Assembly: GCA_031292145.1 (NCBI GenBank)
Contig: JARLHR010000169.1
Span: forward strand, 1-36,161
Reading direction: 5' to 3'
Length of the DNA: 36,161 nt
Source: Clostridium sp.
Lineage (GTDB): Bacteria; Bacillota; Clostridia; Clostridiales; Clostridiaceae
This document shows, piece by piece, positions 2,920-33,247 of the stretch (positions are counted from its first letter, which is position 1; every line of letters starts with the position of its first letter). The notes under the pieces were generated by a model. That model had not been told where the DNA came from. It did no database searches and worked only from the letters and a program-made list of their open reading frames with translations. The position numbers were made by a program, and so were the translations under genes.

Positions 2920-3192
2920 GTGTATATATCAACTAAACTAATAGATTATAGATTATCTCCTTTAATAGAATCGCTTTATTTGGCTGAATCACGGAAATCA
3001 AAAAGGGTTAAGATAGGATGTGGACAGGGAGACACTCGATTTATTATGCACAGAAACGATATGAAGTGAATTCTGTAGATTTATCCGAGTATGCTGTAAA
3101 TCACTTGAAGAAATGGGGAAATGGATGATGTGATTTTAGGTTACGATAACTTAGAGGGATATTTAAAGGGAGATAAGTATTTGAGTTTTTAA
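2920..3192 (+). pseudogene. Remnant of a SAM-dependent methyltransferase
   Basis: The frame from GTG 2920 contains KIGCGQGDT, the glycine-rich SAM-binding motif I, then stops at 3067-3069. One base out of frame the reading continues YYAQKRYEVNSVDLSEYAVNHLKKWG (motif I helix and the acidic motif II strand SVDLSEYA) and stops at 3126-3128. A third frame, DVILGYDNLEGYLKGDKYLSF, ends at 3190-3192. The pieces are in the right order for one class I methyltransferase, so at least two frameshifts plus deletions have broken it. No ribosome site precedes it. The 3' segment 3145-3184 resembles DNA at 15470-15509. Confidence 0.75.
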
Positions 3193-3281: not shown

Positions 3282-3830
3282 TTATGATTCATTTCCATTT
3301 TTACAATAATTAAGACAAAGGTTTAACCATTTGATTGAAGACTCTTCTCGTATAATGGCTCCTTTTAGAACAAGAAAATCTCCAAAAACATCACTATCAA
3401 CAGGTGGAATACCATTATAAGGTTCCAATTGAGTGTATAAAAATGTAAGTCTGTCTTGATGCTGTTCTAATTGCTGTTCTAATAAATAAATTCTAGTATT
3501 TAAATCTAAATTATTTGAAAAGTACATCCTAAGGCGAAAAACATTCTTCGGCGTCTGTTCCATAGGTTCATCTTTTTTTAACCATTTTAAAAAGTCTTTC
3601 TTACCTTTTTCTGTAATAGTATAAACCTTCTTTTCTAAAACATCTCCAGTAATTTCGATATTGTAAACTATAGATTTTTCGTCTACTAATTTTTTCAACT
3701 CTGGATATATTTGACTATGTTTTGCACTCCAAAATTCAGCTAATTGAAAATTAAATTCTTTTCCTATATCATAACCTGTCATAGGTTTTCTATTTAATAA
3801 TCCTAAAATTGCATATTTAAGTGTTCTCAT
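3282..3830 (-). CDS. PadR family transcriptional regulator
   Basis: 182 aa. Residues 1-80 form the PadR winged helix (MRTLKYAILGLLNRKPMTGYDIGKEF; then SQIYPELKKLVDEKSI and KKVYTITEKGKKDFLKWL), and residues 90-180 form the helical Vir_act_alpha_C dimerisation domain (LLEQQLEQHQDRLTFL...). The length matches B. subtilis PadR. PadR proteins are repressors released by ligands, phenolic acids in the founding member. ATG 3830 is preceded by AAAGAGGTG; an upstream GTG at 3836 overlaps this site. It is divergent from the OFA carrier gene, with 296 bp between the start codons, so it probably controls that promoter. The ligand is inferred only. Confidence 0.88.
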   Translation of the reverse strand: MRTLKYAILGLLNRKPMTGYDIGKEFNFQLAEFWSAKHSQIYPELKKLVDEKSIVYNIEITGDVLEKKVYTITEKGKKDFLKWLKKDEPMEQTPKNVFRLRMYFSNNLDLNTRIYLLEQQLEQHQDRLTFLYTQLEPYNGIPPVDSDVFGDFLVLKGAIIREESSIKWLNLCLNYCKNGNES

Positions 3831-4043
3831 AAACACACCTCTTTCCTTGACATCTATTTATTATAACATGGTTTTTGCAAAATACAATTGTATCAAATAT
3901 TACAAGTGGAATGCAATGGGGAATCTATACAAGTAAATATATAGAGATAAACATGCACAGTAATTATAGCTTAATAAACAAATATTCAAAAAATATATAC
4001 AATTATATATAAAATTAAACATATAAATATTTATATATTGATA

Positions 4044-4100
4044 TTTACATGTTTCTGATATTGTGATATTATTAACATGTAATTGTGATAATATTAACAA
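4044..4100 (+). promoter_or_regulatory. Promoter of the OFA carrier with two tandem Rex-like boxes
   Basis: -35 TTTACA (4044-4049), 17-bp spacer, -10 TATTAT (4067-4072). Two near-identical 18-mers, TTGTGATATTATTAACAT (4061-4078) and TTGTGATAATATTAACAA (4083-4100), are spaced 22 bp apart (two helical turns). Against the known clostridial Rex consensus TTGTTAA-N4-TTAACAA they match 5/7 in the left half and 6/7 or 7/7 in the right. The first box covers the -10 and the second the start-site region, a repressor layout. Two ACATGT motifs (4047-4052 overlapping the -35, and 4075-4080) may be PadR sites. Promoter elements are seen; the binding proteins are inferred. Confidence 0.65.
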
Positions 4101-4126
4101 AAAAGATAAACAAGGGGGATTTTTTC

Positions 4127-5374
4127 ATGGAACTTACAAAAAAAAGATGGATTATTTTAATTGCAAGCTGTTTTATCAATTTATGTATTGGTTCGATGTA
4201 TGCTTGGAGTGTTTTTGCAGCTCCTATGGCAAGCTATTTGAGTCAAGTTACTGGTGCTGCTTTAACTGCGGGTACCTTAGCGATCGTTTTCACAGTCACG
4301 AATTCAGTCGGACCTATTACTATGATTACAGGTGGAAGAATTAATGATACTTTTGGACCTAAAAAAGTTATCTTCTTTGGAGGAATACTTTTTGGAGGAG
4401 GTATGATTTTATCAGGGTTTGCCAATGGATTAGGAGTGTTAGTAATAGGGTATGGTGTTCTGACTGGTCTTGGTATTGGAATGGTTTACGGATGTACAAT
4501 CAATAATTCAATTAAATTTTTCCCAGATAAACGTGGATTTGTTGGGGGTATTACAACTGCATGCTATGGTTTTAGTACAGTAATAATATCACCAGTTGCA
4601 AATATATTAATAAATAATTTTGGAGTAACCTCAGCATTTAAGATAATAGGTACTACATTCCTAATTATTGTATGTGGCTGCTCATTCTTAATTGATAAAT
4701 GCCCAGCAGGATTTGTTCCAGAAGGCTGGACACCACCAGTTTCTCAAGGAAACAAGTCAAATCAAAATGATAAGAATTGGAAAGAAATGATTGCAACACC
4801 TATTTTTTATGTAATGATGTTAGTATTTTTATGTGGTGCTTTTTATGGGTTAATGTGTTCTTCTATGACTTCTCCTTTAGCACAAGGTATGATTGGAATG
4901 TCAGTTACTGCTGCGACTACTGTAGTTTCTGTTTTAGCATTATTTAGTACTGGCGGCCGTATAATTGCAGGTTATCTTTCAGACAAAATAGGTAGAAATA
5001 ATACACTTTCTGCTGGTTTTATTCTTGCTGTTATTGGACTTACATGTTTGTATTTTTCAGGGCAAGGAGATGTAATGAAATTTTATGCAGGAATAATAAT
5101 TGTTGGATTATCCTTTGGAGCATTTATGAGTGTTTTACCAGGGTTTGTTGCGGATCAGTTTGGTACTAAGCACAATAGTGTTAACTATGGAATAATGTTC
5201 ATTGGTTTTGCAATATCAGGTTATTTTGGACCAACTGTTATGAAAAATGTATATGCTGCTGATCATAGCTATCAAAGAGCATTTTTAATCGCTGCAATTC
5301 TTTGTGTTATAGGTTTTGGATTAACATTTGTATATCGTTATATGCATAAGAAAGAGATTGGTGCTAATAAGTAA
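4127..5374 (+). CDS. OFA family MFS transporter (oxalate/formate antiporter-like)
   Basis: 415-aa integral membrane protein with 12 predicted membrane spans. The N-terminus (RWIILIASCFINLCIGSMYAWSVFAAPM) is characteristic of the OFA family, which exchanges or imports small carboxylates. The cytoplasmic MFS motif appears as GRINDTFGPKKV at about 76-87 and again as GYLSDKIGRNN at about 282-292. The ATG at 4127 follows AGGGGGAT by 6 nt; a GTG at 4085 lies inside the operator region and is rejected. The gene precedes the enoate-reductase-like gene by 152 bp with no evident terminator between, so the carrier probably supplies its substrate or exports its product. The exact substrate is unknown; the PadR neighbour hints at an aromatic or unsaturated acid. 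Confidence 0.88.
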   Translation: MELTKKRWIILIASCFINLCIGSMYAWSVFAAPMASYLSQVTGAALTAGTLAIVFTVTNSVGPITMITGGRINDTFGPKKVIFFGGILFGGGMILSGFANGLGVLVIGYGVLTGLGIGMVYGCTINNSIKFFPDKRGFVGGITTACYGFSTVIISPVANILINNFGVTSAFKIIGTTFLIIVCGCSFLIDKCPAGFVPEGWTPPVSQGNKSNQNDKNWKEMIATPIFYVMMLVFLCGAFYGLMCSSMTSPLAQGMIGMSVTAATTVVSVLALFSTGGRIIAGYLSDKIGRNNTLSAGFILAVIGLTCLYFSGQGDVMKFYAGIIIVGLSFGAFMSVLPGFVADQFGTKHNSVNYGIMFIGFAISGYFGPTVMKNVYAADHSYQRAFLIAAILCVIGFGLTFVYRYMHKKEIGANK

Positions 5375-5526
5375 ATATATATGTAAACAATTGCCTGTTA
5401 ATTGTTAGACAATAAATTACATCCTACAAGGTAAATTTATTAACAAAGATATGTTTTCAATTTAAGTGATTATATCAGTAATAATTGAAAAAAATTAATA
5501 TTTTATAAATTAAGGAGAATAGAATT

Positions 5527-7476
5527 ATGGAAAGAAAATATCCCAACCTATGCAAACCAATTAAAATTGGAAATGTAACTTTTAGAAATAGAATGTTTTC
5601 AGCTCCCATGGGAGGAACAGATATTACAGCAGATTGTACTATTGGACCTGCATCAACAGCTTTTTATGAATTAAGAGCTAAGGGTGGAGCAGGTTCAGTT
5701 ACTGTAAGTGAAGTAGTGGTTCATCCAAAAACAGAAGCTTCACACATGTATCATTTAGACTTACAAACAGTAGGCTCACTTGCAAGTTTCACTTATACAG
5801 CAGATGCTATCCGTCGTCATGGAGCAATTGCCAGCGTAGAATTATCCCATTCAGGACAATATGCTGGAACTTACTTAACTGATAAGGATAAAAAAGAAGG
5901 TATGGCTCAATGGGGACCAAGTGTTGGGGTTCGTCCAGATGGCCGCGAAGTAAAGGAACTTACTCAAGAATTAATAGATGATATAGTAAAAGCTTATGGA
6001 GATACTGCTGCACTAGCAAAAAGAGCAGGATTTGAAATGGTTATGATTCATGGTGGACATGGATGGTTAATTAATCAATTCTTATCACCTTATTTTAATA
6101 AGAGAACAGACAAATACGGTGGGTCATTAGAAAACAGAGTTCGTTTTGCACAAGAAGTTCTTGATAGTGTACGTAAAGCTGTTGGACCTGGATTCCCAAT
6201 AGAATTTAGATTTAGTGGTTCAGAATTATTTGAAGGTGGCTATGATCTTGCAGAAGGTGTTGAAATTGCTAAGTTAATAGAATCAAGAGTGGATTTACTT
6301 CATGTGTCTGCAGGAACTTACCAAAGAGGATTTGGATTAACACATCCTTCTATGTTTTTACCACATGGATCAAATGTTTATCTTGCAGCTGAAATCAAAA
6401 AACATGTAAGTGTTCCAGTTGCAACACTTGGTGGTTTAAATGATCCAGAAATGATGGAAGAAATAATAGCTAGCGGTAAGGCAGATGTAGTTGAAATGGC
6501 ACGTGCACTTTTAGCTGACCATGAATTACCACAAAAGGTTATGAGCAACCGTGATAAGGACATTGTAAAATGTTTAAGATGCTTCACATGTATGGCTGAG
6601 CGTGCTGCTACATCTACAAGACGTTGTACAGTTAATCCATTAATTGGACGAGAACTTGGTGGAATGGAAGTTATACCAGCAGCTGCTTCACGCAAAGTTC
6701 TTGTAGCTGGTGGTGGTCCGGGAGGACTAGAAGCTGCTATCACTGCTGCAAAACGTGGACATAAAGTAATTCTTTGTGAAAAATCTAATGAATTAGGTGG
6801 AATACTTAAGGGAGAACAAGCACTTCCATTTAAATATGAAATGTATGAGCTAGGAGTTACTCTTGGAAAATTAGCAGAAGATGCTGGTGTTGAAATAAGA
6901 TTAAATACAACTGTTACAAAAGAATATGTTGAAAAAGAAAATGTTGATGCATTAATTATAGCGGTTGGTTCAGAACCACTTGTTCCTCCAATTCCAGGTT
7001 TAGATGGAGATAATGTAGTAGTTGTTAATGACTATTATTTAGAAAAGGACAAGGTTGGTAATGAAGTAGTAGTTCTTGGAGGAGGTCTTGCAGGTTGTGA
7101 AGCAGCAATACATCTTGCACAAGAAGGAAAGACTGTACATCTAGTAGAAATGAGAGCTGAACTTGCTCCAGATGCAAACATAAGACATCGTCCAATTTTA
7201 TTAGCTGAAATTGAGAAGAATGGTATTCAAGTTCATACGGAATATAGAGGATTAAAAGTAACAGAAGAAGGTGTTTTATGTTCTGATGTAAATGGTGAAG
7301 AACATCTTGTACCAGGTATTTCAGTAATCTGTGCACTTGGACAAAGAGCAAGAAGAAAAGAAGTAGATGAATTAATTAATTGTGCACTATGGGTTAGAGA
7401 AATTGGAGATTGTGTACGTCCATCTACTATAACAACAGCTGTATATCAAGGATATCATGCTGCACTTGATATCTAA
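5527..7476 (+). CDS. NADH:flavin oxidoreductase / 2-enoate reductase-like enzyme
   Basis: 649 aa, full length for the enoate reductase/dienoyl-CoA reductase/BaiCD group. Residues 1-340 are an old-yellow-enzyme TIM barrel binding FMN (start PNLCKPIKIGNVTFRNRM; active-site HGGHGW with H175 and H178, then LSPYFNKRTDKYGGSLENR). Cysteines C349, C352, C355 and C367 (CxxCxxC-x11-C) should hold a 4Fe-4S cluster; the usual spacing is CxxCxxxC. Residues 385-649 contain two dinucleotide folds: VAGGGPGGLEAA near 393 (FAD) and VLGGGLAGCEAA near 515 (NADH). Such enzymes pass electrons NADH-FAD-FeS-FMN to an activated C=C bond. The substrate (2-enoate, cinnamate-type acid, or steroid) cannot be fixed from sequence. 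The ribosome site is AAGGAG. The OFA carrier is upstream and a terminator follows. Confidence 0.88.
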   Translation: MERKYPNLCKPIKIGNVTFRNRMFSAPMGGTDITADCTIGPASTAFYELRAKGGAGSVTVSEVVVHPKTEASHMYHLDLQTVGSLASFTYTADAIRRHGAIASVELSHSGQYAGTYLTDKDKKEGMAQWGPSVGVRPDGREVKELTQELIDDIVKAYGDTAALAKRAGFEMVMIHGGHGWLINQFLSPYFNKRTDKYGGSLENRVRFAQEVLDSVRKAVGPGFPIEFRFSGSELFEGGYDLAEGVEIAKLIESRVDLLHVSAGTYQRGFGLTHPSMFLPHGSNVYLAAEIKKHVSVPVATLGGLNDPEMMEEIIASGKADVVEMARALLADHELPQKVMSNRDKDIVKCLRCFTCMAERAATSTRRCTVNPLIGRELGGMEVIPAAASRKVLVAGGGPGGLEAAITAAKRGHKVILCEKSNELGGILKGEQALPFKYEMYELGVTLGKLAEDAGVEIRLNTTVTKEYVEKENVDALIIAVGSEPLVPPIPGLDGDNVVVVNDYYLEKDKVGNEVVVLGGGLAGCEAAIHLAQEGKTVHLVEMRAELAPDANIRHRPILLAEIEKNGIQVHTEYRGLKVTEEGVLCSDVNGEEHLVPGISVICALGQRARRKEVDELINCALWVREIGDCVRPSTITTAVYQGYHAALDI

Positions 7477-7540
7477 TCTAATCATGGTATTTTAGGTTTG
7501 GTAACTGAAGAATAATCATTTTTCTGAAAAGCAAAATTAC

Positions 7541-7594
7541 AACCTCAAACGGAAAATTCTCTTAATAAGGGAAATTCCCGTTTGAGGTTTTTTC
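7541..7594. terminator. Bidirectional terminator between convergent genes
   Basis: AACCTCAAACGG at 7541-7552 pairs with CCGTTTGAGGTT at 7578-7589, followed by T6. It lies between the reductase stop (7476) and the stop of the convergent MFS gene (7659) and can serve the plus strand best. Confidence 0.85.
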
Positions 7595-7658
7595 CATAGA
7601 ATAAAGATAAAAAATTGAATCTTAATTTTCAGGCACTGTAATAAATTTTTATGCATAC

Positions 7659-9089
7659 TCAGTTTTTACCAGTTTGAAAATTATTGCGTTTCAGAAATAA
7701 AGATAAAATTACAGCAAGAATAAGAATGAAAACTTGAATTACAAAAGCATTATGCACACCGAATACTAAGGATAAAGCTTGTGATTTTGAATCAGTAGGA
7801 TTGTTTATAGACATCAAATAATTTTTTTGATTTGAGGACATAATAGCAACAAATAAAGATGTTCCAAATGCTCCAGCAATTTGTTGTAGTGTATTCATTA
7901 TAGCTGTGCCATGAGGAGCATATTCAAGTGATAATTGATTTAAACTATTTGTTTGAGTTGGTGTGTTTATCATACCTACAGCTAGTAATGACAAACAATG
8001 TAAAGCAATGATTATTGGAATTGTTATTTGAAGTGATATGGTAAATGAAAAAATACAAAATACAACTGTTGAAATTATAAATCCGGGAAGAATCAGTACT
8101 TTAGCTCCAAACCTATCATAAAGATGTCCTGAAATAGGTGATACAATACCATTAATAAGGCCACCAGGTAGCATAATAAGCCCGGCAGCAAAAGCGGTTA
8201 ATCCTAAAGCTCCTTCAAGAAACATTGGTAAAATAAGCATAGTAGCAAAATTAACCATATGCATAATTATAATAAGTATAGTTCCAATAGTGAACATAGG
8301 ATATTTAAAAGGGCGCATGTCCAACATTGGATTTTTCATATGCAATTGACGTAGCACAAATGCGAATAATGCAACACATCCAACGATTATAGGGATAGTC
8401 ATCGAACTAGCAGAACCACCAATATTGCTCACACCATATATAAATCCTCCAAAACCAATAGTAGATAATAAAATAGATGGGATATCAAGATGTGGTTTTG
8501 TTAATTCAGTTAAATTCTTTAAATATACATATCCAATTATCAATGAAATCATAGAAAGTGGTATTATGACAAAAAATAACCACCTCCAATTGAGTGATTG
8601 CATAACTAATCCAGAGAGAGTTGCACCGATGGCTGGTGCACAAAACATTACAAGATTAAATATGCCTAATGCTTTGCCACGTTTTTCTACTGGATTAATA
8701 ATTAATAAGGTATTTATTATATTGGGGATTAATACACCAGTTCCTACAGCTTGAATTAATCTTCCTATTAGTAAAATAGAAAAAACAGGAGCAACACCAG
8801 ATATGATTGTTCCCAAAAGAAATATTGTTACAGATGTTAAAAACAATTGCCTCGTTGTGAAAGTTTTGGTAAGAAAAGCAGAAATCGGAATGGAAACACC
8901 CATGATAAGCATATAACCTGTACTTAGCCACTGAACAGTGGTTGCAGATATATTAAATTCAACCATTAAACTTTTCAAAGCCATATTTAATACTGTTTCG
9001 TTCAGCATGCAAAAAAATCCAGCTGATATTAGTGCTATAGTAATTGGTAGTACTTTTAATTCGTCATCTTCGCAAATAACTTGTTCCAT
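7659..9089 (-). CDS. DHA2 family MFS multidrug efflux transporter
   Basis: 476-aa membrane protein with about 14 spans, the size and topology of the EmrB/QacA (DHA2) drug:H+ antiporters. Seen: an N-terminal span beginning TIALISAGFFCMLNETVLNMAL (the LNETVLN motif D1 of this group), WLSTGYML in helix 2, GRLIQAVGTGVLIPN (motif B, with the conserved Arg in helix 4), and APAIGATLSG (antiporter motif C) in helix 5. The ribosome site TGGAGGTT is 8 nt upstream. It lies downstream of a MarR gene on the same strand but behind its own promoter; a 14-mer is shared by both promoters. Drug efflux is known for the family; the substrate is not predictable. Confidence 0.9.
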   Translation of the reverse strand: MEQVICEDDELKVLPITIALISAGFFCMLNETVLNMALKSLMVEFNISATTVQWLSTGYMLIMGVSIPISAFLTKTFTTRQLFLTSVTIFLLGTIISGVAPVFSILLIGRLIQAVGTGVLIPNIINTLLIINPVEKRGKALGIFNLVMFCAPAIGATLSGLVMQSLNWRWLFFVIIPLSMISLIIGYVYLKNLTELTKPHLDIPSILLSTIGFGGFIYGVSNIGGSASSMTIPIIVGCVALFAFVLRQLHMKNPMLDMRPFKYPMFTIGTILIIIMHMVNFATMLILPMFLEGALGLTAFAAGLIMLPGGLINGIVSPISGHLYDRFGAKVLILPGFIISTVVFCIFSFTISLQITIPIIIALHCLSLLAVGMINTPTQTNSLNQLSLEYAPHGTAIMNTLQQIAGAFGTSLFVAIMSSNQKNYLMSINNPTDSKSQALSLVFGVHNAFVIQVFILILAVILSLFLKRNNFQTGKN

Positions 9090-9142
9090 TTCTTTGAACC
9101 TCCATGAAAATATTTTTTTATTATATGTTAAATGATATGCAA

Positions 9143-9201
9143 ATTATTAGTGTGAATATAGTTGTTATACTAATAATATATCTACTATGTAATTCTGTCA
9201 A
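9143..9201 (-). promoter_or_regulatory. Promoter and MarR-type operator of the DHA2 efflux gene
   Basis: On the minus strand: -35 TTGACA (9201-9196), 17-bp spacer, -10 TATTAT (9178-9173). Overlapping the -10 is TATTAGTATAACAA (9175-9162), repeated exactly in the promoter of the neighbouring MarR gene. It is also one arm of an inverted repeat, ATTATTAG at 9143-9150 against CTAATAAT at 9170-9177, 35 bp in total. This is the pattern expected of a MarR repressor site. Confidence 0.65.
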
Positions 9202-9249
9202 ATATATTTTTTGTAAGTATTATACATTGAATCGTTTTTGGACAATATA

Positions 9250-9286
9250 AAAAATGTGACTAACAATTTGTAAGTTAGCCACATTT
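9250..9286 (-). terminator. Terminator of the upstream MarR gene
   Basis: On the minus strand AAATGTGGCTAAC pairs with GTTAGTCACATTT across a short loop, then a T run follows. It separates the MarR gene (stop at 9344) from the DHA2 gene, so the two are transcribed separately. Confidence 0.8.
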
Positions 9287-9343
9287 AATAAATATGTGTT
9301 AAAGAAATATTTATTAAAATTTGATTCATGGAAGTTTTTTTAT

Positions 9344-9784
9344 TTATAAGATGCTCAAATTAGTAATATTATTATCTATTTTAGCAAGAACATCTAGATA
9401 AGTTTTTAGATCTTTTTCAGAAATACCATCTAGAATTTTTTTGAATATATCTTCTATGTATGGTGTAAGTTCTTTCGTTAAATCGAGTCCTTTTTCTGTT
9501 ATATGAATCGAGAATGAACGTCTATCTTCTTTACTGGCATGCCTTTCAACAAGGACCTTTCTTTCTAATATATCAAGCATTCTTGTCAATGTAGGTTGAT
9601 CTTTATTTACTGCTTGTGACAGAATTTTTTGATTTATCTTATTTTGTTTAGATAGTGTAAACAATACTTGCCACTGTTCGGCGGTTATATCAAAAATTCC
9701 TAGCTGTGAATTTAAGAAATAAACCATTTTTTTATTTACTAAACTTGTAAAATTGCCAACATTTTTATCATAAGATTCAAACAT
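9344..9784 (-). CDS. MarR family transcriptional regulator (of the DHA2 efflux gene)
   Basis: 146 aa. The MarR winged helix spans residues 30-105: ITAEQWQVLFTLSKQNKINQKILSQAVNKDQPTLTRMLDILERKVLVERHASKEDRRSFSIHITEKG, with the recognition helix DQPTLTRMLDILE and the wing containing DRRSF, the usual D-x-R motif. Flanking helices form the dimer interface. Its promoter on the minus strand is TTGAAA-N17-TATACT (9848-9820), with the 14-mer TATTAGTATAACAA (9816-9829) covering the -10, the same sequence as in the DHA2 promoter. Autoregulation plus control of the downstream pump is therefore likely. Confidence 0.9.
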   Translation of the reverse strand: MFESYDKNVGNFTSLVNKKMVYFLNSQLGIFDITAEQWQVLFTLSKQNKINQKILSQAVNKDQPTLTRMLDILERKVLVERHASKEDRRSFSIHITEKGLDLTKELTPYIEDIFKKILDGISEKDLKTYLDVLAKIDNNITNLSIL

Positions 9785-29992: not shown

Positions 29993-30529
29993 ATGGGGAA
30001 TTTAAAAGGAACAAAGACAGAAGCAAATTTATGGGCAGCATTTGCAGGAGAATCTCAAGCAAGAAACAAATATAGTTATTTTGCATCAAAAGCAAAAAAG
30101 GATGGATTTGTACAAATAGCATCTATTTTCGAGGAAACAGCTAATAATGAAAAGGAACATGCTAAAATATGGTTTAAACTTTTAGAAGGTATTGGCACTA
30201 CTTCCGATAATTTAAATTCAGCTGCTGAAGGCGAAAATTATGAATGGACAGATATGTATGCAACCTTTGCAAAAGAAGCAAAAGAAGAAGGATTCGATAC
30301 GATTGCATATTTATTTGAAGAAGTTGCTAAGATTGAGAAGGAACATGAGGAAAGGTATAGAAAGCTACTTGCTAATATTGAGGGTGATTTAGTATTTTCA
30401 AAGGATGGAGATGTAATTTGGAAATGCTCTAATTGTGGACATATATGCGTTGGAAAGAAGGCACCAGAAGTTTGTCCTATATGTTCTCATCCAAAAAGCT
30501 ATTTTGAAATAAAAGCAGAAAATTATTAA
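29993..30529 (+). CDS. rbr: Rubrerythrin
   Basis: 178 aa, standard rubrerythrin with the di-iron domain first and rubredoxin second. Four-helix domain: [35 protein letters not shown] and [15 protein letters not shown] provide the Glu and two E-x-x-H ligands. The C-terminal rubredoxin-like centre is CSNCGH (Cys pair) and CPICSHP. It reduces hydrogen peroxide to water in the cytoplasm, fed by NADH via rubredoxin or flavin reductase partners. Desulfoferrodoxin follows 27 bp later. The ribosome site is AAGGGGATGG. Confidence 0.95.
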
Positions 30530-30556
30530 TACTATAAAATGAGAGGTGGAATAATA

Positions 30557-30937
30557 ATGGAAGAACAAAAATTTTATGTTTGTAAGCACTGTGGTAATAT
30601 GGTTGCTTTTATTAAGGATTCAGGAGCAAAAATTTCATGTTGTGGGGAACCAATGACTAAGTTAGAGCCTGGTACAGTGGAAGCAAGTGTGGAAAAACAT
30701 GTTCCTGTTGCTACATGTGAAGATGGAGTTGTTAAGGTTGAGGTTGGTTCTGTTATGCATCCAGCGACTGAGGCACATCATATTGAATGGATTTTCTTGA
30801 AAACAGAAAATGGTGGGCATAGAAAAATATTAAAGCCATTAGATGAACCAAAAACAGTATTTTTCATAGGTGAAGATAAACCAGTTACAGTTTATGCGTA
30901 TTGCAATCTGCATGGTCTCTGGATGGCTGAAATTTAG
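30557..30937 (+). CDS. dfx: Desulfoferrodoxin (class I superoxide reductase)
   Basis: 126 aa. The N-terminal desulforedoxin centre has C9, C12, C28 and C29 (CKHCG...CCGEPM). The C-terminal superoxide reductase centre has the EKHVP motif with catalytic K47 and ligands H48, H68 and H74 (MHPATEAHH), C116 and H119 (CNLHG). It reduces superoxide to peroxide, which the adjacent rubrerythrin can then remove. ATG 30557 follows GAGGTGG; the in-frame ATG at 30539 lies before that site. It shares an operon with rubrerythrin. Confidence 0.96.
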   Translation: MEEQKFYVCKHCGNMVAFIKDSGAKISCCGEPMTKLEPGTVEASVEKHVPVATCEDGVVKVEVGSVMHPATEAHHIEWIFLKTENGGHRKILKPLDEPKTVFFIGEDKPVTVYAYCNLHGLWMAEI

Positions 30938-31053
30938 CAAATTAAACTTAAAAACTAAGCAAAGTTATTTATTTTTATAAAGATGACAAGCTATAAGATA
31001 ATTTGAAAATGGTTACTATAATAGCATAAGCAAAAAGAAAGAGGGCAGCAATT

Positions 31054-31701
31054 ATGAATAATGACGCATTTAGAAATTTATCATATGGGGTGTATATTAT
31101 CTCTGCATGGGATGATGGAAGACCAACTGGCTGTACAGCTAATAGCACTATGCAGATTACATCAGATCCTGCAACTATTGCAATTAGTATCAATCATGAT
31201 AATTATACTAATAAGTGTATTGAGGAGACAGGAAGATTTGCAATCTCTATTTTAGGAGAGAATTCAGATTCAACAATTATCGGTACATTTGGATTTCAGT
31301 CTGGTAAAAATGTAAATAAATTTGATTCTGTTAAGTACGAAGTGAAAGGATATATGCCAATAGTAATGGAAGCCTGTGCTTATATTACTTGTGAAGTAAT
31401 CAATAAGATGGAGACAGATACGCATACTGTTTTTCTAGGTAAAGTTCTAGATGCAGATGTTCTTTCAAAGGATGATCCTATGACATATGCTTATTACCAT
31501 AAGGTTATAAAAGGAAAAAGTCCAAAGAATGCTCCAACCTATATTGCTGAAGATAGCGAAGTGGAAAATAAGAGTGGAAAATATGTATGCAGCGTATGTG
31601 GATATGTGTATGAAGGGAACATTCCATTTGAAGAATTGCCAGAAGATTATACTTGTCCAGTATGCAAACAACCAAAGTCGGTATTTAAAAGGCAGGAATA
31701 A
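31054..31701 (+). CDS. Flavin reductase-rubredoxin fusion (high-molecular-weight rubredoxin)
   Basis: 215 aa. Residues 1-155 are a flavin reductase-like FMN domain ([46 protein letters not shown]..., CAYITCEVI). Residues about 170-215 are a rubredoxin with both Cys pairs ([10 protein letters not shown] and [11 protein letters not shown]). In anaerobes such proteins (Hrb type) pass electrons from NAD(P)H to flavodiiron oxygen/NO reductases or to rubrerythrin and superoxide reductase, which fits the two genes just upstream. The 116-bp gap contains a TATAAT at 31017-31022 and the ribosome site AGAGGG, so it may have its own promoter. Confidence 0.9.
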
Positions 31702-32440: not shown

Positions 32441-32824
32441 ATACCATTATATAATTTCTTTGTAAGGTTAGAAAGTCAATTTTTATATTAGTCATATGAA
32501 AGGAAATAAATATATATTTTTGTGAAATAAAATCTTAAAATCATAATATATATATGAAAATCATGGAACTTAGATTAAGTTGTGAATGTTTGTATCCCCA
32601 TACGTGTCAGTATGCTTTTAGCGACTTCAATCTAGTAATTGATTGCAATATTGAAGTGTGTATATTTAAGATATAGTTATATGAGTCATAAAAATAAATT
32701 ATTGGGTATAAATGAAAGAGAAGAATTAGTAGAAAATATAGATCAATGTATGTATCTAATAAAATAAAATAATGTTAATATAAATATATGGCACTTAAAA
32801 ATTAGATTAGAGTGGGTGAGGCAA
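32441..32824. other. Intergenic region without a recognised gene
   Basis: AT-rich. A 28-codon frame, MSHKNKLLGINEREELVEN..., at 32681-32767 has no ribosome site and no recognised family. Nothing else stands out. Confidence 0.3.
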
Positions 32825-33247
32825 GTGAATGATAAAATAGTAATTAAAGCTATGAAAGAGTTAGATATAGATCAGGTACTTAAATTATGGAATGATATTT
32901 TGGGTTCATCATTTCTAGAAAAATCCGTTACAAAGGAAGAGTTAATCACATATATAAAGAAAAATCCAGATGCTAGTTCTGCAGCATATGATGATGGGAG
33001 ATTAATAGGAGCTTTATTATGTGGAAATGATGGGATAAGGGGATTTATATATCATATTGCAATATATAGTGAATATAGAGTTAATGAAATTGAAAAAAGA
33101 TTATTAGATCGTTCGTTATCAAAGTTGAAAGAAGTTGGAATCGAAACAGGTTTTATATTTACACAAAATAACAACCATGATATGGATGTAAGCTTTAACT
33201 CTATAGGTTGGGTTGTAATTCCTAACGAACTCAACTTAGGCACATGA
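32825..33247 (+). CDS. GNAT-like acetyltransferase, probably truncated and inactive
   Basis: 140 aa resembling a GNAT domain: KAMKELDIDQVLKLWNDI at the N-terminus, DDGRLIGALLCGNDGIRGFIYHIAI (strand 4 region) and NSIGW near the end. The acetyl-CoA loop, normally R/Q-x-x-G-x-G/A, reads R-V-N-E-I-E, so cofactor binding is doubtful. The last three codons (LGT) and the TGA stop come from the mobile element fragment beginning at 33239, so the natural C-terminus has been replaced. The start is uncertain: GTG 32825, or GTG 32816, with GGTGAGG nearby and no good spacing for either. Confidence 0.6.
   Translation: MNDKIVIKAMKELDIDQVLKLWNDILGSSFLEKSVTKEELITYIKKNPDASSAAYDDGRLIGALLCGNDGIRGFIYHIAIYSEYRVNEIEKRLLDRSLSKLKEVGIETGFIFTQNNNHDMDVSFNSIGWVVIPNELNLGT

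Follow-up and report, generated by a model that had tools for sequence, protein, structure and literature searches.

The contig JARLHR010000169.1 of Clostridium sp. (assembly GCA_031292145.1), analysed over its full length of 36,161 nucleotides and hereafter called the window, is contig C57 of a 6.34 Mb host genome near C. sp. C2-6-12, C. chromiireducens and C. puniceum. It carries a module of three genes, coding for a PadR-type repressor, a carrier and an iron-sulfur flavoenzyme, and the carrier promoter is overlapped by two boxes that are probably operators of the repressor Rex. The repressor gene padR (3282–3836, minus strand) is divergent from the carrier gene; its product, with domains PF03551 and PF10400, has 184 amino acids if translated from a GTG codon and 182 from an ATG two codons further on. 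The carrier gene (4127–5374, plus strand, 415 amino acids) codes for a protein of the major facilitator superfamily (MFS), probably of the L-lactate/monocarboxylate type. It is followed at 5527–7476 on the same strand by the gene of a 649-amino-acid FMN/FAD/4Fe-4S flavoenzyme of the FadH/BaiCD/2-enoate-reductase superfamily (domains PF00724 and PF07992). An earlier note on this DNA had reported the three genes, including a divergent PadR of 182 amino acids, together with the promoter and both boxes, and all of these were found again at the same coordinates.

Rex-type boxes at the carrier promoter

The promoter, which the earlier note had read as TTTACA-N17-TATTAT, is present at 4044–4072 of the plus strand, with the predicted −35 element TTTACA at 4044–4049 and, after a 17 bp spacer, the predicted −10 element TATTAT at 4067–4072. 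Box 1, TTGTGATATTATTAACAT (4061–4078), spans the −10 element, while box 2, TTGTGATAATATTAACAA (4083–4100), lies just 3′ of the predicted transcription start and ends 26 bp before the carrier ATG; its exact-pattern match is 247 bp from padR. The two 18-bp boxes start 22 bp apart. Against the strict Rex pattern TTGTTAAN4TTAACAA, with its 14 fixed positions, they score 11/14 and 12/14, the same values as in the earlier note, and against a relaxed pattern, TTGTKAWN4WTMACAA, 13/14 and 14/14. When the intergenic region was shuffled with its dinucleotides preserved, a strict match of 12/14 was reached in 20 of 1000 shuffles, the relaxed 14/14 match in none of 1000, and two separate relaxed sites of at least 12/14 in 47 of 5000. 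Since the relaxed pattern had been set after inspection of the window and of the host crt box, the two relaxed figures are partly post hoc.

Conservation does not depend on the choice of the relaxed pattern and, together with the genes that carry other copies in the host, is stronger evidence than the shuffle figures. A comparison of the window with four near relatives shows 17 invariant positions out of 18 in each box and 24 of 31 at 4020–4050, whereas the spacer at 3871–4019 retains 32 of 149 and the leader at 4101–4126 retains 8 of 26. Because the boxes are so much more constant than the spacer, they look like real control sites. It could be argued that they are merely tandem extended −10 elements (TGTGATAAT, TGTGATATT) that work without a repressor, since box 1 holds the predicted −10 and the left halves of both resemble the extended −10 consensus. 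However, the right halves, TTAACA(A/T), share in the conservation although a −10 element does not need them, and no suitable −35 was seen for box 2, which leaves this explanation with very little credit.

The module was examined at ten loci: the window, C. sp. C2-6-12, C. chromiireducens, C. puniceum, G023 (probably C. saccharoperbutylacetonicum), C. sp. DSM 17811, G041, G038, an uncultured member of the Eubacteriales (L007) and Sharpea azabuensis (L006). Paralogues at 44–45% identity (L015–L017) were excluded from this count. All ten have padR, carrier and reductase linked, and in the nine loci other than the window the padR orthologues are 52–90% identical and always accompany the module. 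Within the host genus, the reductase occurs at 83% identity or more in 7 of 68 genomes and at 45% in an eighth; a search of the phylum at E <= 1e-250 found it in a single genome of 398, that of the window; 3 candidates were scored among the genomes listed.

The best relaxed box scores at least 13/14 in eight of the ten loci and both boxes are retained in five, so that boxes do stand ahead of orthologous carriers, a point on which the earlier proposal hung. DSM 17811 has a single box of 14/14 (relaxed; 0/1000 shuffles), which contains the −10 element behind a −35 of the form TTGACA. The G041 promoter carries TAGTTAATAATTTAACAA, which comes close to a strict clostridial Rex site (13/14 strict; 2/1000 shuffles strict, 12/1000 relaxed), and that of Sharpea TTGTGCAAAATATCACAA (13/14 relaxed; 7/1000). 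In Sharpea, all three genes lie on one strand (L006:4311–8182), and PadR-type and Rex-type sites are still found just before the carrier. Moreover, a rex gene was detected in each of the nine other module-bearing genomes searched, ten of ten with the host. DSM 17811 has a second rex-family gene (L135:6133–6765, PF06971 and PF02629) a few kb from the module, adjoining an adhE-like gene (6875–9463).

The host itself, whose possession of Rex the earlier note had left to be checked, has one rex gene (G000:C33:2543–3178, PF06971 and PF02629). The crt-bcd-etf genes follow directly downstream of it, and TTGTTATATTATTAACAA stands ahead of crt. The exact relaxed pattern occurs six times in the host genome, once within an open reading frame (ORF) and five times before genes, namely crt, an FeFe hydrogenase gene, adhE, a thiolase gene and the window carrier, while a backwards control pattern gave eight matches, of which three are intergenic, two of these being at most 250 bp ahead of a gene start. 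Given the host rex and the genes that carry the exact matches, the boxes are probably Rex operators. A stricter form, TTGTKAAN4TTMACAA, has no perfect site in the host and 33 sites with one mismatch, the window site being the 33rd. Thirteen of these are intergenic, among them sites before crt, the thiolase gene, adhE, the FeFe hydrogenase gene and the window carrier, and likewise before another PadR/flavoenzyme pair and a third flavoenzyme gene, which is broken.

Some observations weigh against reading these sites as Rex operators. The exact pattern is no more frequent in the host than its control (6 against 8), and it is the location alone that is telling. Of the 33 one-mismatch sites, 20 lie within ORFs, and among the 13 between genes there are 6 (L036, L045, L052, L053, L055, L056) with no evident link to NADH. 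The boxes are also weak in two of the ten loci, each with a best relaxed score of 12/14, which was reached in 138/1000 relaxed shuffles for G038, where it is not significant, and in 23/1000 for L007. Allowing up to two mismatches, the stricter form gave 462 matches against 422 for its backwards pattern, a count that is uninformative; summed over the 68 genus genomes, the exact pattern gave 235 forward matches against 174 for the control, a modest excess that we do not use as proof.

The CRP consensus is TGTGA-N6-TCACA, and box 2 can also be read as TGTGA-N6-TAACA, one letter off. Binding of a Crp/Fnr-type regulator in place of Rex is nevertheless improbable in our view: the host sites at crt, the thiolase gene, adhE and the hydrogenase gene have T rather than G at position 5 and are otherwise of the same form, and the G041 site has the form of a clostridial Rex site rather than of a CRP site. 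At position 7 these host boxes, read in one of the two directions, have T, as do those of the window. G at position 5 is the form of the Staphylococcus aureus Rex site, TTGTGAAW4TTCACAA (PMC2883068). In C. pasteurianum the predicted Rex targets include adhE, thl and crt-bcd-etfBA-hbd, and one is annotated as an NADPH dehydrogenase (PMC5367854), so that Rex near enzymes of this kind perhaps has a precedent. The Rex regulon of solventogenic clostridia (crt-bcd-etf, thl, adhE) thus shows the same box form before NADH-consuming genes, as does the host (PMC5367854); the window differs from it in its tandem boxes, in the G at position 5 and in a linked second regulator at the same promoter. Taken together, the conserved boxes, the rex gene in all ten genomes and the boxes of the same form at host fermentation genes give the Rex control proposed by the earlier note good support from comparison.

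PadR and its candidate sites

PadR and LmrR operators are inverted repeats of ATGT and ACAT, 8–10 bp apart (PMC3506622, PMC5050560). Two candidate PadR sites fall in the conserved 4020–4050 segment: a degenerate ATAT-N8-ATAT at 4021–4036, upstream of the −35 element, and ATAT-N8-ACAT at 4035–4050, which overlaps it. A perfect ATGT-N8-ACAT is found near the −35 in four of the ten loci (G041, G038, L007 with two, Sharpea with one). Both ACATGT motifs noted earlier are present, at 4047–4052 and 4075–4080; the second, however, reads ACATGA in all four near relatives and is therefore probably no PadR site.

The host has a second PadR/flavoenzyme pair, here called module 2 as against module 1 of the window, on contig C8 (G000; L026:1481–4219 / L058:7981–10719). 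Its PadR is 54% identical and divergent from a 663-amino-acid iron-sulfur flavoenzyme; a Rex-type box, TTGTTAAATGGTTAACGA, begins 45 bp before the start codon, and ATGT-N8-ACAT lies over a TTGACA there as well. Sixteen orthologues at 83–100% identity were collected from the 68 genus genomes, host included. A PadR is present in the fetched flank of 13, and a perfect ATGT-N8-ACAT containing TTGACA in 12. The Rex-type box, on the other hand, is clear (−45 to −48) in three of the 16 (L063, L065, L069), and L073 has a weak one; in L071 and L076 a 12/14 match lies far upstream (−150 and −163), and the remaining orthologues have nothing above shuffles, with the result for L077, which is on the opposite strand, uncertain. 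This scarcity of Rex boxes counts against a common Rex-PadR scheme, and with PadR sites in 12 and a clear Rex box in 3, module 2 would have PadR control as its constant element and Rex control as an occasional one, while in module 1 the Rex boxes appear to be the better conserved part. A third flavoenzyme of this type, on host contig C134 (L059:5015–6857), is split over two reading frames and has ATGTGAATAAATTCACAA upstream. Four other PadR relatives in the host (29–35% identity) have no such flavoenzyme in their flanks of about 1.5 kb.

The same repeat as in known PadR/LmrR systems (PMC3506622, PMC5050560) is thus found in 4 of 10 module-1 and 12 of 16 module-2 promoters, whereas the window's own repeat is degenerate, and the targets of control would be the genes of a carrier and of a reductase. 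This degeneracy speaks against PadR acting at the carrier promoter, as the best window site reaches 7/8, a value matched by 505 of 1000 shuffles, and in DSM 17811 the best PadR-like match is likewise 7/8 and lies away from the −35. Both facts would suit an arrangement in which Rex alone governs the promoter and PadR acts on itself or on another gene, with no dual control. We regard such an arrangement as unlikely, since padR stays linked in all ten loci, even in Sharpea where it is co-oriented with the carrier, the segment around the −35 is conserved, and perfect sites occur in the four module-1 promoters and over the −35 of most orthologues of the paralogous module 2. Of the PadR control suggested by the earlier note, the linkage and the sites in relatives stand, while the sites in the window itself are a weak point.

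Flavoenzyme and carrier

The flavoenzyme combines FMN-type, iron-sulfur and FAD/NADH regions with four clustered cysteines in one chain, the domain make-up of FldZ. In length (649 against 665 amino acids), regions and clustered cysteines it resembles FldZ as published (PMC5882074). It differs in the spacing of the cysteines C349, C352, C355 and C367, CX2CX2CX11C instead of the CX2CX3CX11C of FldZ and invariant among the 11 sequences aligned, in its linked carrier and in the residue at the FadH catalytic tyrosine (PMC5882074). This tyrosine is Y166 in 1PS9 numbering (PMC12238238). Alignment to E. coli FadH places Trp180 (window 6064–6066) at the position, and tryptophan is found there in all ten module-1 enzymes and in the L015–L017 paralogues (44–45% identical), whereas module-2 enzymes, that of the host included, retain tyrosine as FldZ does. 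The FadH histidine position is occupied by Tyr265, and H175 and H178 are retained. The nearest sequences in the Protein Data Bank (PDB) are NCR (6qkg) and 2,4-dienoyl-CoA reductase. No NCBIfam equivalog model was reached, the best score being 423.9 against a cut-off of 793.15. The long form of bilirubin reductase was rejected as a candidate (411.8 bits against a cut-off of 750), and none of 299 genomes passed that cut-off.

In view of Trp180, which speaks against an acid C=C reductase, and of the compressed cysteine cluster, the module-1 enzyme would not be a plain FldZ-type enoate reductase. The label "enoate reductase" given in the earlier note is therefore doubtful, as the domains and the clustered cysteines fit it while the tryptophan and the lack of an NCBIfam ene-reductase equivalog do not. 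The same tryptophan and cysteine motif, invariant in the ten enzymes, and equivalog scores far below cut-off would also agree with another NADH-fed activity of the FadH/TMADH superfamily, for instance that of a demethylase or of a reductase acting on a different group. We hold this to be a possible but lesser alternative. In YqjM-type enzymes the histidines of the H-x-x-H-G motif bind the substrate, and both are kept here, together with a tyrosine at the FadH histidine position and nearest PDB sequences that are NCR and the dienoyl-CoA reductase, all of which are in favour of an ene-reductase.

The carrier had been assigned to the OFA family. It does belong to the same superfamily, matching the OxlT structure 8hpj at E = 7.9e-36, yet both OFA models fail (TIGR00890, 225.1 against 374.85; TIGR04259, 179.9 against 335), whereas the L-lactate MFS model NF049980 passes (421.6 bits, cut-off 320). 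Moreover, K355, the second basic residue of OxlT, corresponds to F361. Transport by SfMCT requires R280, N276 and D257 (PMC6573034). The carrier resembles SfMCT in passing NF049980 and in retaining the substrate arginine as R278; on the opposite side, D257, N276 and Y331 of SfMCT are replaced by G, S and F. Our best guess is a monocarboxylate carrier that fits the L-lactate family better than the OFA antiporters.

Surroundings of the module

In relatives, whose flanks were read by eye, the module is not accompanied by close counterparts of the other window genes; there are weak matches only, such as an acetyltransferase-like gene (32816–33247) with relatives downstream of the L005 (50% identity) and L003 (38% identity) modules. 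The three genes padR, carrier and reductase therefore seem to travel as one unit. By eye, a methyltransferase-like gene remnant with no open frame of useful length was noticed at 3014–3130, and rubrerythrin-, desulfoferrodoxin- and flavin reductase/rubredoxin-like genes stand in a row at 29993–31701, an oxygen-defence group. Near the G041 module (L020:12922–14965), UbiX- and UbiD-like genes were likewise seen by eye, with three genes in between, one of them LysR-like.

Discussion

The comparison supports the two boxes as control sites that resemble the Rex sites of the host, the linked PadR with its sites in relatives, and the domain make-up of the enzyme. From these we infer binding by Rex and PadR, the joint logic, the ligand, the substrate and the function as an electron sink. 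We consider it somewhat more probable than the contrary that the carrier-reductase operon is an electron outlet gated by redox state and by substrate, through Rex and PadR acting with AND logic. At low NADH, Rex would sit on box 1, over the −10, and on box 2, past the start, and block transcription; at high NADH, at which Rex releases DNA (PMC5367854), it would leave both boxes. The linked PadR would sit on ATGT-N8-ACAT-type sites that lie in tandem over the −35, and would be freed by a ligand, probably the acid that the carrier transports; the operon would be made only when both repressors have let go. The carrier would then import a monocarboxylate, to which the flavoenzyme would pass electrons from NADH over FAD, the 4Fe-4S cluster and FMN; the reduced product would exit, perhaps through the same carrier. 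The net effect would be an extra route for the reoxidation of NADH.

The module is plausibly an electron outlet that has been little described. No joint control of such a module by Rex and PadR appeared in titles or abstracts among the matches listed, which came mostly from non-subscription literature, and this agrees with the earlier note, whose author knew of no such description; one listed paper (PMC3848806) contains both names. A wider reading, which we offer tentatively, is that of a general clostridial circuit with two keys, where Rex, signalling surplus NADH, and a dedicated PadR, signalling that an acceptor is present, jointly gate optional electron-sink flavoenzymes. Such a circuit would have been assembled at least twice in the host genome, from PadRs that are paralogues and from enzymes that differ, the tryptophan-type site of module 1 acting on some acid. 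The second rex gene and adhE beside the module of DSM 17811 belong to the same context.

The known role of Rex is to steer core fermentation. In the window it is apparently paired with a substrate-type repressor on a recurring reductase module, which would amount to a logic gate for optional acceptors. If this is true, new acceptors could be found by way of Rex boxes next to PadR and iron-sulfur flavoenzyme genes, and the module may represent a competing electron outlet in solvent-producing clostridia.

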